Below, piece by piece: positions 5,547-54,773 of a DNA stretch of 64,000 nucleotides (within the stretch, counting starts at the first letter, position 1; each line of letters opens with the position of its first letter). Source of the stretch: Caldilineaceae bacterium SB0661_bin_34 (lineage in GTDB: Bacteria > Chloroflexota > Anaerolineae > Caldilineales > Caldilineaceae); NCBI GenBank assembly GCA_009841145.1, contig VXMJ01000093.1:11982-75981 (forward strand), given 5' to 3'. Below the pieces are notes generated by a model. The model saw only the letters and a program-made list of their open reading frames with translations, ran no database searches and was not told where the DNA came from. A program made the position numbers and the translations under genes.

Positions 5547-6120
5547 CGCGCAACAGACGTTTGAGGTGTGTCATGGCGAACTGTCATGAACCCCGCGTCC
5601 CCGGCGCTGTTTCACTTTCGTTGCGTTTGGTCCGCACCCATCGGCATCCCCCGCGCCCAAAGATGCACCGGAGTGGTCACCCGGTGCCGCCATGGCGGTG
5701 CGGCCTGCGCGTCGCGGGCGCCACGGCCTGGCTCCACGTGCTCGGCGACGACACCCCTACGTACCCAACACCTGAGTTGGCGCGGCGAGGTGTGGAAGCA
5801 TGTGCGACCCCTGCGGTCCCTGCCGGGATCGAATGTGGATCAGGGCCGGAGAAGCAATCCTCCCATGGCCCAGAATCCCGAAGGGCAAGCTTGGTCCGGA
5901 TGCTTGCAATTGCATCGCGGGCCATGACCGGCCGATTCGGAAACCCGTCCTTCAAGGTGAAGACCTCGAGGCAACAATGAGACAACTGCTTCAACAAGTA
6001 GGATAGCCGCCCGCAACGAGTGGCTGTCTTCACTCCAGGAACCTTGGACGGCCTTGGGACTGTCCGGCACCCGTCCCACTTCAGGTTGCCTTGTGGTTCA
6101 GACGCGAGACCGCCCGCGGT
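5547..6120. other. Intergenic; no gene recognised
   Basis: Convergent gap between the pilin cluster and P1. It carries the hairpin at 6002-6028 downstream of P1. The ORFs listed in the track here have no recognisable features. Confidence 0.5.
6002..6028 (-). terminator. Hairpin downstream of P1, degenerate
   Basis: On the minus strand, gacagccac...ggcggctatc can form an imperfect stem followed by tacttgttg. It lies ~95 bp beyond the P1 stop and matches the position and core sequence of the hairpins behind P2 and P3. Confidence 0.4.
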
Positions 6121-7437: not shown

Positions 7438-8491
7438 GGGAAGTATCCGTCACGGTCAAGTGGGTTGGGGTCAACGGCGCGATGATTGGTCGGAAGGCAG
7501 GGAGCACGATGGCAACCAGCTTCCCGATCCGGTGGAGGGGGGCATGGCCCAATGCCCTGATGCACCCGAAATCGTTTCGTTTCGGGTTGGGGACCGGCAG
7601 GGATCTCGCGCCGAACCGGTACCTCGTCCGATGACCTACTTGCCGGGATCGGACGTCAACCGCCTCTGGACGTTGCGCCCACAGCCGTTTCACCGTTTCA
7701 CGAAGGCTGTCTCCGATGGCCCAATCACCGCCGACCACGTCGATGGAGACGATCTCCCGTGGCGGTCCGTCCTGACCTGCGCCCAGACTTCCCGCTCGTG
7801 GATCTCGTCGTCCGGACGAGCGGTCCTTTCCTTCCGGCGGGTGAACGCAATGTGCTTCGACGATTGCGTGGGCGCCGGGATGGATGCGGGACGCATGCCA
7901 TTCCCCAAGACCCGCCAGTCAATGGCCGATTCTATACCGACTACTTGCATGTACGCAACTCGCATGGGCACAAAGTTATGAATGTAGGCGATTGGCACTC
8001 CATATGGATAACAAAGAGAAGTTCCTGAAGTCCAGCGTGGCGAGTGGGGCTTCGGGACGGATGGGGACCGGATGCAGGCCTTCGTCGTCGGCTAGGCCGA
8101 CGGTGGACGCGATGAACCCACGCAGGGCCCCTGCGGCTCCTGCGCAGGCACGGACCCAAGGCCACCACAACGGCGGCAGGCCCGCCTCTACGCCTACGGC
8201 ACCGTGGGCGTGTGTTCCCGGTTCCGAGGACGAGTTTCGGAGCCTTGAAAGCCCATTCCTGTTCCCAACTGCCGCGTCCCCTATTGGAAGGCGGTGGCCC
8301 TGGCCTGAGACAAGCGCACGGAACCTGTCCCACGCGCGGAAGATGCCGATAACGATCTGGAACCAAAATCAACGAGATTGAAACAGTGCCAAAGCCGAGA
8401 ATAGCTTGCCTTCCTGGTGGATCTATGCTATAAGGAGCCAATCAAGCGCCGGCACGCCGCCGCACTACGTTGACACCCTTGGAGCCGCGCT
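7438..8491. other. Divergent intergenic region between P1 and P2
   Basis: About 1 kb without a credible gene. It must contain the promoters of P1 (leftward) and P2 (rightward). A solo transposon end lies at 8362-8390. Long ORFs here are frame shadows without domain features. Confidence 0.5.
8362..8390 (+). repeat. Solo inverted-repeat end of the composite-transposon IS
   Basis: Contains atcaacgagattgaaacagt and ends in gcc, matching the right terminus of the IS at 52577-53616 over about 30 bp (27 of 30). Similarity stops immediately inside, so only the terminus survives, or it is the end of a related short element. The partner end was not found nearby. Confidence 0.65.
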
Positions 8492-50550: not shown

Positions 50551-50593
50551 CCGGGCAACATCCGAATGGCCCGCGGCGGCGGGTGGGATGGTT

Positions 50594-50731
50594 GGCACTG
50601 TTTCAGTCTCGTTGATATTGGTTGCGGGCTGTCGTGGGCATATCCTCCGTATCAGTGGGTTCCGTGTCTCGCGTCAGGCCATGCTGCGGGCCATCAGGCA
50701 CACGAAGTTGAGGGTCCCCGCCTCGGACTTC
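50594..50731 (-). repeat. Right-end fragment of the composite-transposon IS
   Basis: Inverted copy of 53480-53616 with about eight differences in ~135 bases. It encodes the last residues of the transposase (FVCLMARSM) and its terminus. The rest of this IS copy is missing. Confidence 0.85.
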
Positions 50732-50732
50732 G

Positions 50733-50914
50733 AGCCTTGGTACCCGCCACCCTACAACCCGGAACTGAACGATGTTGCGCACCCGTTCCGGAAGGTCAAG
50801 CCTTGGGGCTCTGCCCATGCCCATGCCCGACAGCTGACAGCCGTCGTGCAAGCCGGTTTCCAACGCCTCCGGGACCAGGTTGCGTCCGAACCTGCACCCA
50901 TGGCAGCTGTTTAG
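50733..50914 (+). pseudogene. IS630-type transposase 3' fragment
   Basis: FEPWYPPPYNPELNDVAHPF, RKVKPWGSAHAHARQLTAVV corresponds to the PPY.PELNP.E..W...K region at the end of IS630 DDE domains. The catalytic Glu position reads Asp/Val and nothing upstream remains. It differs from the IS630 at 18.3 kb, so a second lineage. Its stop overlaps the end of the GH16 gene on the other strand. Confidence 0.65.
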
Positions 50915-52362
50915 GGCTTGCAGGCATAGACACGCACGTATTCGAGTTCCATGCTCTGTGGCCAGATGTTGGGATCGATGCCTTTGGCAGCCGCCCAGTC
51001 ACCGCCCACATACAGGTTCAGGATGAGACGGAAAGGGTGGTCGAAAGGCCACTCTTTGTAGTTCGCTTCGGGATTCCACATCCGATCGTTCTTGAACACA
51101 AAGTAGGGAGTGTCGTCTGCATAGATCGTGATGGTGGACTCGGTCCATTCCACCGCGTATCGGTGGAAGGCGGTACTGGCATCCGGGAAGTGGAGCGTTT
51201 GGGCATCCAGTGTCTCGGTTCCAGCCCTGTTGCTGTAGACCACCGTGTGGATGTTGGCATGCACGATGCCGGGCTTGTGCCCCACGAATTCCATGATGTC
51301 GATTTCGCCGTTGTTCGGCCAGCCACCGTAGGGATCGGTATTGGAAACCATCCAGATGGCGGCCTTGGTCCCCCGCCCCGCGGGTAACCGGGCCGACATC
51401 TCGAACCATCCGTAGGTCCATGCCTGTCTGGAGGTCAGCCGGGGCACCGTGTATTCGCGACCACCGTACCCGTCCTTGTGGGCCTCCAGGATGAGGAGGC
51501 CATCCTCGACGCGCGCGTTGGCCTTCCGGTTGGCCGTTGTGTAGAAGAGCGCGTCCGGGTTCCAGTCGTTCTGGCGGGTGTCAAACCACCATCGGGAGCT
51601 GTCGGGCAGACCGTCCCGTTCGAATTCATCGGACCAGACCAGGGGACAAGGCACACCCGGGTCCACCGTAGGCGTGGCCGTGGGCACCGGCGTTGGCGGC
51701 GAAGGCTTCGGGGGGCCGGCCACCATGGGCAGAACTGCCCGGTGGTGCTCCGCCAGATCCGTGAGCGGTCCATAAATCCACAGGGGGCTTGCACCCCCCG
51801 TCGGATCCGAGATTCGCACCCAATCCCCCGCTGTGTTCAGGGCTTGGGCCTGCAACGGATCGCCCTGCCGCACCTGTGTGCGGACCGGGTAGTCGGTACC
51901 CGGCCCGATCCGGACGTTGACGACGGCACCGGTGACGGTGAGCACTATGGTGACCGGGGCGGGCGGCACCGGCGTGGTCTCAGGCAGAGCGGTTGGGACA
52001 GCCGCCACGGACAGGCTGTCCCGGAGCGCGGCGGTCAGATTGGTATGGTCAACGTGAATCCACAGGGTCCGGTCCTCATGGAGGACTTGGATCCACTCCC
52101 CGTCGCCATCGCGGCCCCGCACCGGGAGCCGGGTTCCCTGCACCACGCGGGTGGCGACGGGGTGCATCGGGCCGGGCCCCTCCCGCAGATTGGCAATCGA
52201 ATGCTGCGTGGTAGCCTCCAATGCGGGAACCAGGTCGGTGCAGGCGGCCATCAGGATGACCGGCAAACACCAAGAGGCCACTGTCCACAGCCATGACCGC
52301 CCAGCAGGCCACATGAGGGGCACGTTTCCCGGCAACTCCGGCCGGATTCGGAAACGCAACAT
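50911..52362 (-). CDS. GH16 family glycanase lipoprotein with two SH3 domains
   Basis: 483 residues. Lipoprotein signal SWCLPVILMAAC. Two bacterial SH3 modules (SIANLREGPGPMHPVATRVV; VVNVRIGPGTDYPVRTQVRQ) and a Thr/Pro linker (PSPPTPVPTATPTVDPG) precede a GH16 domain of ~240 residues: LVWSDEFERDGLPDSSRWWF, SARLPAGRGTKAAIWMVSNT, catalytic motif NNGEIDIMEFVGHKPG (E-I-D-I-M-E), WTESTITIYADDTPYFVF, PFRLILNLYVGGDWA. Likely an endo-beta-glucanase (laminarinase or lichenase-like) or agarase-type enzyme anchored outside the cell. It is the cargo of the composite transposon. Promoter must lie in the ~215 bp between its start and the IS. Confidence 0.92.
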   Translation of the reverse strand: MLRFRIRPELPGNVPLMWPAGRSWLWTVASWCLPVILMAACTDLVPALEATTQHSIANLREGPGPMHPVATRVVQGTRLPVRGRDGDGEWIQVLHEDRTLWIHVDHTNLTAALRDSLSVAAVPTALPETTPVPPAPVTIVLTVTGAVVNVRIGPGTDYPVRTQVRQGDPLQAQALNTAGDWVRISDPTGGASPLWIYGPLTDLAEHHRAVLPMVAGPPKPSPPTPVPTATPTVDPGVPCPLVWSDEFERDGLPDSSRWWFDTRQNDWNPDALFYTTANRKANARVEDGLLILEAHKDGYGGREYTVPRLTSRQAWTYGWFEMSARLPAGRGTKAAIWMVSNTDPYGGWPNNGEIDIMEFVGHKPGIVHANIHTVVYSNRAGTETLDAQTLHFPDASTAFHRYAVEWTESTITIYADDTPYFVFKNDRMWNPEANYKEWPFDHPFRLILNLYVGGDWAAAKGIDPNIWPQSMELEYVRVYACKP

Positions 52363-52576
52363 CTGTCAGTATCCTCCTTGGAGCCAGCCCCGCCCGCCTT
52401 GTTGGGTTGGGATACCAGCCAGCCGGTGAAGGGCAGACCTGTTCCAAACTGAACCGGCCAATGCTCCCAACGAATTCGCAACGCGCGGGGCCACGCAGTC
52501 CGGACGGCAGTGCAGGCGGCAGGATCCCGAATTATTGCAACATGATCCCTTCCGCCCCAAACCCATTTGTGCCGAT

Positions 52577-53616
52577 GGCACCGTGGCAATCTCGTTGATA
52601 TTGGTGGCGGTCGCGCAAACACCAAGGAGAACCCTCGCCATGGACTTCATCCTGGTCCCGGCCGACCCCGAACGCCAACGGGCCCTGCCCGACGATCCGG
52701 GTGCCGGCCCCCAAGGCGGAGTCTGCGCCTGGCGGCACCACGGTACCTCCCCGCCACCTGGCCGTGCAAGGCCTGTCTGGGCCGCATCTTGCCCCTGCCG
52801 CCTGACGTGATCCCGCCAGCGGCCGCCGACCTTCCGGGAGCTGGTGGCCGACCTGTACGTGCCCTGTGTCAGTTTCCGAGGCCTGTCCCGCCTCCTGGCC
52901 CGACTGGGCTGCGGGGTGGGGGCCGCCACCCTATGGCGGGACGTGCAGGCGGTGGTCCCCGGTCTGGCGCCCGACCCGTGGGCGGACCTGCCACTGTGGG
53001 TCGAAGTGGACGAGACTTGGCTGTCCATCGGTGGTGAAGAGCGTCCGGTGGCGGGGTGGTCCTGGGGCCGGAGGGCGCACGGCTGGACCTGCGCCTCAGC
53101 GGTCCCGGCTTCGACCGGAGCGGCTGGTTCACAGGCTTGGCCGCGCGCGGGGTGCAGGGGCTGACGACCAACGACGAACCAGTCTACGGGCCCGGCCCGG
53201 GAGGCGGCAGGCCTGGGCCGACAACAATGTGCCCTGCGCCTTCAGCGCACCGTGGGGCGGCACATGCGGAGTATCGACGAGGACGACCTGACCCACCGGG
53301 ACCGGGTCCTGTCGCCCATCCTGCGACGCCTGGCCCGGGCGCGACCACCGGAGGCGGGGCCCGGTCCGTTGGCGCTCTGGGAGGTGGTGATAGGGGAACC
53401 CAAGGTGTCCGCCTATACCAACCGGTTGGAAGGCTGGTTTGGCCGCGTCAAGCCCCAAACCCGCCTGACGCGGGGGCTGCAGACCGAGGCGGGGACCCTC
53501 AACTTCGTGCGCCTGATGGCCCGCAGCATGGTCTGACGCGAGACACGGAGCCCAATGATACGGAGGATATGCCCACGACGGCCCGCAACCAATGTCAACG
53601 AGATTGAAACAGTGCC
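52577..53616 (+). mobile_element. Insertion sequence, 1040 bp, ~30-bp inverted repeats
   Basis: Left end ggcaccgtggcaatctcgtt, right end inverted ggcactgtttcaatctcgtt; the match extends ~30 bp with a few differences. Forms the right arm of the composite transposon. Family not assigned. Confidence 0.8.
52844..53536 (+). pseudogene. DDE transposase broken by frameshifts
   Basis: Three frames must be joined. The first (52844) carries a helix-turn-helix-like region RGLSRLLARLGCGVGAATLW and LPLWVEVDETWLSIGGEERP (first acidic residues). The second, from ~53050, has GPGFDRSGWFTGLAARGVQG and LTTNDEPVYG (second Asp). The third, from ~53190, has TVGRHMRSIDEDDLTHRDRV and SAYTNRLEGWFGRVKPQTRL (Glu) then TRGLQTEAGTLNFVRLMARS. 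A Cys pair upstream (WPCKACLGRI) suggests a lost N-terminal zinc finger. Not functional as read. The family is unclear to me. Confidence 0.7.
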
Positions 53617-53768
53617 GGGATGGTTCGGAACGGCATCGCCATCGCGCAACGCGTTTTATGATTTACCTCAAGCAGGACCGCGCAATCAGTCCTGTGCAGG
53701 TTCGCACCGGCCATGCGCCCCGTATCGGATAGGACCCGGATGCGCGGACCGCGGTCAGGAGGCACGTT

Positions 53769-54773
53769 ATGGAACTCCAATTCCCACGCCCACGACGTGG
53801 AGAGCGGGAGAAGGAAAGGGAAACTCGCTACACAAACTGGCGCGGCATCCAGCCTTTGGCCGCCGTGGACCTGGAGCGCGGGTTCGACTACGAGGATGAA
53901 TGGAATCAGCGCTTCCAAACGTTGCGTGCCGATCCCGCGGCTCGGGAAGGGGTCCGGGAGGGCTTGGAGCGGCTGGAGCGTAGCATGGCCATCGAGACCG
54001 GTGTCATTGAGGGTCTGTACAACCCCACCCACGGCGTCACGCAGACCCTGCTGAGGGAGGGCTTCCGCGCGGAGTATGTGCGCCGACAGGGTGTGGACGT
54101 GGAACCGGAACATTTGGTGACCGTCCTGGACGACCATATGGCGGCCGCCGAAATGGTCTACGCTTTCATCCGCGAGGATCGGCCCATCACCAAGCACGCG
54201 ATGCGCGAGCTGCATGCCCAAATCACCGCCCACCAGGAAACACACAACGCGGTGGATATGCTGGGTCGGCGCGTGCAACGGAAGCTGCGGCGCGGCGTGT
54301 GGAAGGACTTCCCCAACAATCCCACGCGGCCCGACGGCACCGTCCACCTCTACGTGCCGCCGGAGCAGGTGGATCCGCAACTGGACCTTCTGCTGGATCT
54401 CTATGGGGCCTACGAGCCGGCTCAACATCCTCTGCTGACAGGGGCCTGGATTCATCATCGCTTCATCCAGGTCCACCCCTTCGCGGACGGCAACGGACGT
54501 ACGGGCCGCGTGCTCCTGAACTGGCACTTGGTCCGCAATGGATGGCCACCTATCCTGGTGCACCGCCAGGATCGCAACGCCTACCTGTACGCCATGCAGC
54601 AGGCGGATGCGGACGACCTTTCGGTCCTGACGGAATTCCTGATTGCCATGGCGCGCAAGTCGATCCGCGTCGTCATGGCCGATTTCCCGGTGGAGGAGCG
54701 CATGGGCGTGCTGGGACCCGACGACCCCGACTACGTGTACCGCAAGGAGGACGGTTGGCGCAACGGCGTCTGA
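53769..54773 (+). CDS. Fic-domain AMP transferase, class II with inhibitory helix
   Basis: 334 residues. The N-terminal inhibitory motif RSMAIETGVIEGLYNPTHGV contains T-x3-E-G; its Glu normally blocks ATP binding. The Fic core is canonical: LTGAWIHHRFIQVHPFADGN GRTGR-type loop (HPFADGNGRTGR), then VLLNWHLVRNGWPPILVHRQ and DRNAYLYAMQQADADDLSVL. Predicted to transfer AMP from ATP to a Tyr/Ser/Thr of an unknown target, self-limited by the N-terminal helix. Full length (~330-370 residues) with a C-terminal tail. The composite transposon ends ~150 bp upstream, so its promoter may have been changed by the insertion. Confidence 0.92.
   Translation: MELQFPRPRRGEREKERETRYTNWRGIQPLAAVDLERGFDYEDEWNQRFQTLRADPAAREGVREGLERLERSMAIETGVIEGLYNPTHGVTQTLLREGFRAEYVRRQGVDVEPEHLVTVLDDHMAAAEMVYAFIREDRPITKHAMRELHAQITAHQETHNAVDMLGRRVQRKLRRGVWKDFPNNPTRPDGTVHLYVPPEQVDPQLDLLLDLYGAYEPAQHPLLTGAWIHHRFIQVHPFADGNGRTGRVLLNWHLVRNGWPPILVHRQDRNAYLYAMQQADADDLSVLTEFLIAMARKSIRVVMADFPVEERMGVLGPDDPDYVYRKEDGWRNGV

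Follow-up and report, generated by a model that had tools for sequence, protein, structure and literature searches.

The 64-kb stretch of DNA from Caldilineaceae bacterium SB0661_bin_34 that was analysed here (hereafter the window) contains, between a Rieske gene and a Fic gene, a 3,023-bp unit at 50594-53616 whose edges are inverted right ends of one insertion sequence (IS). The unit is flanked by a perfect 9-bp duplication, GGGATGGTT, with the left copy at 50585-50593 and the right copy at 53617-53625 on the plus strand, each abutting the neighbouring terminus. The two neighbouring genes, the duplication, and the same IS terminus in inverted orientation at both outer edges had been described in an earlier note on this DNA, and all were confirmed. 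The edges, 50594-50729 (minus strand) and 53481-53616 (plus strand), are inverted copies of 136 bp with 94% identity, and are each other's best match in their own genome. The 9-mer GGGATGGTT occurs four times in the window against 0.69 expected from shuffling, and the chance of a match at two fixed positions, given the base composition of the window, is ~6e-6; this value, together with the empty sites described below, rules out a chance duplication. Four genomes of the genus were compared, the own genome (G000) and three congeners (G001, G002, and G003). The Fic-family gene beside the unit (53769-54773) has an 83%-identical DNA match at G000:C40:44099-45083, and also in G002.

The left arm of the unit (50594-50729) is a solo right end of the IS. 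Its homology to other IS copies reaches ~50736 and it aligns over 143 bp to less damaged ones, so that the arm measures 136-143 bp, in effect the 138 bp given previously. Next to it lies a probable C-terminal fragment of an IS630-like transposase (50737-50910, plus strand), of which no second copy was found in the own genome. The IS630 fragment that the earlier note placed between the arms is thus present as a weak match, with a Pfam DDE_3 E-value of 6e-4 that falls below the curated cut-off. The cargo gene (50911-52362, minus strand) has an intact frame and encodes a 483-aa putative lipoprotein with two SH3 domains and a GH16 domain, and no sigma-70-like promoter match was found in the region upstream of it within the unit (52363-52576). 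The remainder, 52577-53616 on the plus strand, is a decayed IS of full span with a degenerate left end inside, an intact right end outside (53481-53616, the inverted partner of the left arm), and a broken transposase gene. Not only the frameshifts already recognized in this gene but also stops were observed, as well as an 84-bp deletion and, in comparison with other copies, gaps of ~30 bp. No IS of the unit encodes a working transposase, and an autonomous composite transposon is excluded at present, while past autonomy is compatible with the evidence.

Typing of the ends by subterminal sequence identified both outer ends as right ends, that is, the 3' side of the transposase gene, and the inner end as left-type, with the left and right termini of the IS having ~30 bp in common. 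The inner flank of the right IS, TGTGCCGAT, differs from GGGATGGTT, and so the duplication is explained by the outer ends only and belongs to the whole unit. Its length of 9 bp is typical of this IS, as seen at other copies in the own genome (GAGTAATCC at C16:7372-8558 and GTTCAATGC at C100:45129-46201). All four genomes of the genus contain the IS family, and at the threshold used one of 42 other genomes of the family does so too; no copy of its transposase was found on plasmids. The transposase contains a zinc-ribbon and DETW, TDDD, and N-LEG motifs. Like the transposases of the IS256, ISH6, IS66, ISL3, and IS6 families, it has DDE-like motifs together with the zinc-ribbon and gives weak matches to their profiles; unlike them, it scores far below the curated cut-offs, and the profile libraries used do not place it. 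No score for IS256, ISH6, IS66, ISL3, IS6, or IS1 exceeded its curated cut-off, and filing the IS under a curated family was rejected, since every score, including those against every NCBIfam cut-off, was too low.

The description of the cargo as a GH16 lipoprotein gene with SH3 domains was borne out. The GH16 domain is recognized with a Pfam E-value of 7e-29, the ExDxxE catalytic motif is present as EIDIME in the translation, and the closest solved structures to the catalytic domain are laminarinases (3iln, E=9e-73). Judged from its sequence, the cargo enzyme is a putative surface-anchored beta-1,3-glucanase. In a tree, the cargo groups with the resident SH3-GH16 genes of the genus (100/100), which have the same domain order, albeit on a long branch. 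Its identity to the resident gene is 63% at the amino acid level and 71% at the DNA level, with a dS of ~1.1 and a cargo dN/dS of ~0.22, and these DNA identity and dS values rule out a recent copy of the resident gene. Considering that dS among the resident orthologs is 0.19-0.44, the cargo diverged from the resident genes before the sampled species did. No closer GH16 relative of the cargo was found in 46 genomes of the family, viral contigs yielded no GH16 relatives, and none of the plasmid GH16 matches reached 60% identity or covered 80% of the protein. The cargo may have originated in a lineage other than those of the four species sampled. An origin as an old paralog from within the genus, in the own or a sister genome, is also compatible with transposition and, in our estimate, has roughly one chance in three of being correct; the grouping with the resident genes, the identical domain order, and the near confinement of the IS family to the genus among the 46 family genomes speak for such a paralog, but with a dS of ~1.1 against 0.19-0.44 it would have to be older than the species and to have disappeared from every native locus sampled. 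In G001, the resident GH16 gene is divided over contigs C28 (~7915-7923) and C13 (~5895-5903), which share GAAGCCAAC at the break; the split point adjoins an ORF resembling an ISAs1-type transposase, and GAAGCCAAC is apparently the 9-bp duplication that a different IS made within the gene.

The empty site proposed earlier, with one copy of the 9-mer between the Rieske and Fic genes, was found in all three congeners, where the joined flanks with a single GGGATGGTT show 93% (G003), 91% (G002), and 88% (G001) identity. Furthermore, no relative was found that has the GH16 gene in place without the IS ends. The own genome is a draft assembly of 102 contigs (98% complete, 1.5% contamination); despite this, a contig join at the edges of the unit is unlikely because both flanks are syntenic with the relatives. 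The presence of an empty site in each of the three congeners indicates that the unit arrived as one transposition, and a composite transposon, with passenger DNA between two copies of one IS of which the left is reduced to a stub, is well supported as the history of the unit. The 3,023-bp unit was inserted as a single piece between the Rieske and Fic genes by way of its right ends, both of which face outward, with duplication of 9 bp; in the simplest scenario this happened after the species split from the sampled congeners, and the left IS would by then have eroded to its right end. Alternatively, the unit could have been assembled in place, starting from a single IS at GGGATGGTT to which nested insertion, or recombination inside the IS, later added the cargo and the second arm. 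The ~30 bp common to the left and right termini and the abundance of the IS in the genome would make recombination between copies possible, and there is a further probable transposase fragment within the unit. However, the edges left by a single IS would differ in type, one left and one right, whereas both edges are right ends here, and an exchange would need to fall within the terminal ~30 bp. Units with unrelated cargo elsewhere in the genus share the right-right plan, and the site of one of them, in G003, is empty in all three relatives. We consider stepwise assembly very improbable for these reasons.

The other question about the insertion is where the transposase came from. According to the earlier note, mobility had been supplied in trans or lost after insertion. 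Supply in trans is plausible, as MITE-sized and truncated members of the IS family have matched duplications, evidence that family members lacking a transposase have transposed. The unit is present as a single copy, with no second copy at another site in the own genome, and any later mobility is thus hypothetical. The right IS of the unit has roughly eight indel lesions and differs by ~19% from the copy on contig C16, the one copy in the own assembly that was found to have an open transposase of full length. The flanks diverge by ~5% from the nearest congener, G003, of which perhaps 2-3% has accumulated in the own lineage since the split. The damage to the enzyme is large compared with this divergence, which suggests, as an argument from rates rather than a proof, that the transposase of the unit was already broken at insertion. 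That it was instead intact at insertion and decayed later, so that no help in trans was needed, is a minority possibility to which we would give somewhat less than one chance in three; the right IS does retain its full span and both ends, but the same rate argument, ~5% flank divergence and perhaps 2-3% in this lineage against about eight indels and ~19% difference from C16, weighs against it. With its own enzyme probably already dead, the unit would have relied on transposase supplied in trans by another IS copy. The open C16 transposase has lost the DETW motif, whereas copies in G001 and G003 keep it. Taken as a whole, the reading as an inverted composite transposon made of two copies of one IS, with a laminarinase-type GH16 cargo, inserted whole via two right ends and probably with transposase acting in trans, is in our judgement very likely correct. 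The stub-like left IS, the single-copy state of the unit, and the lost DETW motif of C16 weigh against it. Contigs C24, C39, C57, C60, and C84 have an IS end at or close to one of their termini, a pattern that would be consistent with a recent multicopy IS left unresolved by the assembly.

Pairs of inward-facing ends across the genus were compiled from the pattern matches listed, so that the number of units is a lower bound and further units may exist. Among the matches listed, the paired ends enclose full-length ISs (1.07-1.25 kb), deletion derivatives (~0.5-0.6 kb), and MITE-sized elements (131-193 bp), many with matched duplications, and in addition several cargo-sized units; ends of the CAATCTCGTTGA form often have 9-bp duplications, and ends of the CACTTTCGTTGA form 8-bp duplications. 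Many of the MITE-sized elements (131-193 bp) in G000, G001, and G002, for example G001:C16:34011-34202 and G002:C72:17107-17269, carry the terminal repeats of the IS and matched 8-9-bp duplications.

At least three other cargoes occur in the same architecture as the GH16 gene, namely a solo right arm, cargo, and a decayed IS, with right ends outermost. A unit with ArsR-like HTH and glyoxalase-superfamily genes (G003:C373:26364-28243) is flanked by the 9-bp duplication CGTTGGACC, at a site that is empty in the other three genomes; it is inserted near a tRNA-like sequence. A ParD-like and PIN-domain pair, resembling a toxin-antitoxin module carried by a transposon, is found at G001:C38:61848-63430 with the 8-bp duplication ACCAAGTC, and again in an 86%-identical second copy at G001:C72:3520-5112 without a matched duplication; for these two units, no continuous empty site was found in the relatives tested. 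The third cargo is an NYN gene containing a stop (G001:C63:7089-8729, duplication CAACCGAA), and the matching locus of G002 is also occupied. That G002 locus (G002:C72:20875-23922) holds ~2.5 kb with ends of the IS family, so that the two genomes may share the insertion, or the site may have been used twice. In addition, the own genome contains a 2,286-bp unit (G000:C74:47603-49888) with an 8-of-9 duplication and ambiguous end types, at a site where the other three genomes are empty; its lipoprotein-like ORF has a HEIGHGWMGWPHS motif (metallopeptidase-like) and no Pfam match. The outer ends of the C373, C38, C72, and C63 units, as well as those of the unit in the window, match right ends better than left ends, with margins that are large in the window and C373, smaller in C38 and at the right end of C63, and near or under the shuffled level at the left end of C63 and in C72. 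The same architecture with other cargo elsewhere in the genus is a recurrent behaviour of the IS family. The shared plan, in the laminarinase unit of the window as in the ArsR/glyoxalase, PIN-pair, and NYN units, is a solo right end of ~90-140 bp followed by cargo and a decayed IS reading outward. Whether the family acts as a genus-wide gene shuttle, systematically forming non-autonomous units with unrelated cargo and right ends outermost that are moved in trans, is in our view evenly balanced.

Tn10 and Tn5 are inverted composite (compound) transposons. Like these, the unit carries its passenger gene between IS copies in inverted orientation, is bounded on both sides by the same IS end, and was inserted as a whole with a 9-bp target duplication. 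Unlike these, it has one IS reduced to a ~140-bp stub and another that encodes no functional transposase, and it carries a glycoside hydrolase gene rather than a resistance gene. Transporter ISs generally keep one left and one right end around a transposase plus passenger, whereas in the unit the cargo lies between two right ends, with a complete left end on the inner side as well. In having its passenger within IS ends, the unit nevertheless resembles the transporter ISs of the IS1 and IS1595 families, which are mentioned in PMC8496243. Mobile insertion cassettes have been defined and reviewed in PMC3913671, with MIC231 of Bacillus cereus as an example, and one of them, MIC231A1, carries an enzyme gene. 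As in these cassettes (PMC3913671), inverted IS-type ends and a target duplication enclose a passenger gene without a working transposase of its own, and movement is expected in trans. They differ in that the cassettes contain no transposase gene, whereas in the unit such a gene is present but broken, in a recognisable IS copy, and in that movement in trans has been shown for MIC231 but is only inferred here. The unit at present is thus non-autonomous and resembles a mobile insertion cassette or an inverted composite transposon, probably moved in trans.

In summary, what has been shown is one acquisition of a GH16 gene and not the spread of glycanase genes. The earlier proposal of a route for spreading polysaccharide-degrading genes was not supported, given a single-copy unit and no closer carrier in the 46 family genomes, viral contigs, or plasmids. 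The cargo of most well-documented composite transposons is resistance genes, and no paper joining composite transposons with glycoside hydrolases was found in the literature collection searched. Here, a carbohydrate-active enzyme gene was gained by simple transposition in an environmental bacterium, at a time bounded by three empty sites. The kind of element is already known, and what merits further study is that it recurs with right ends outermost. With parallel units present in the genus, the rule, that is, which ends, which cargo, and which transposase are used, can be examined across several independent events.
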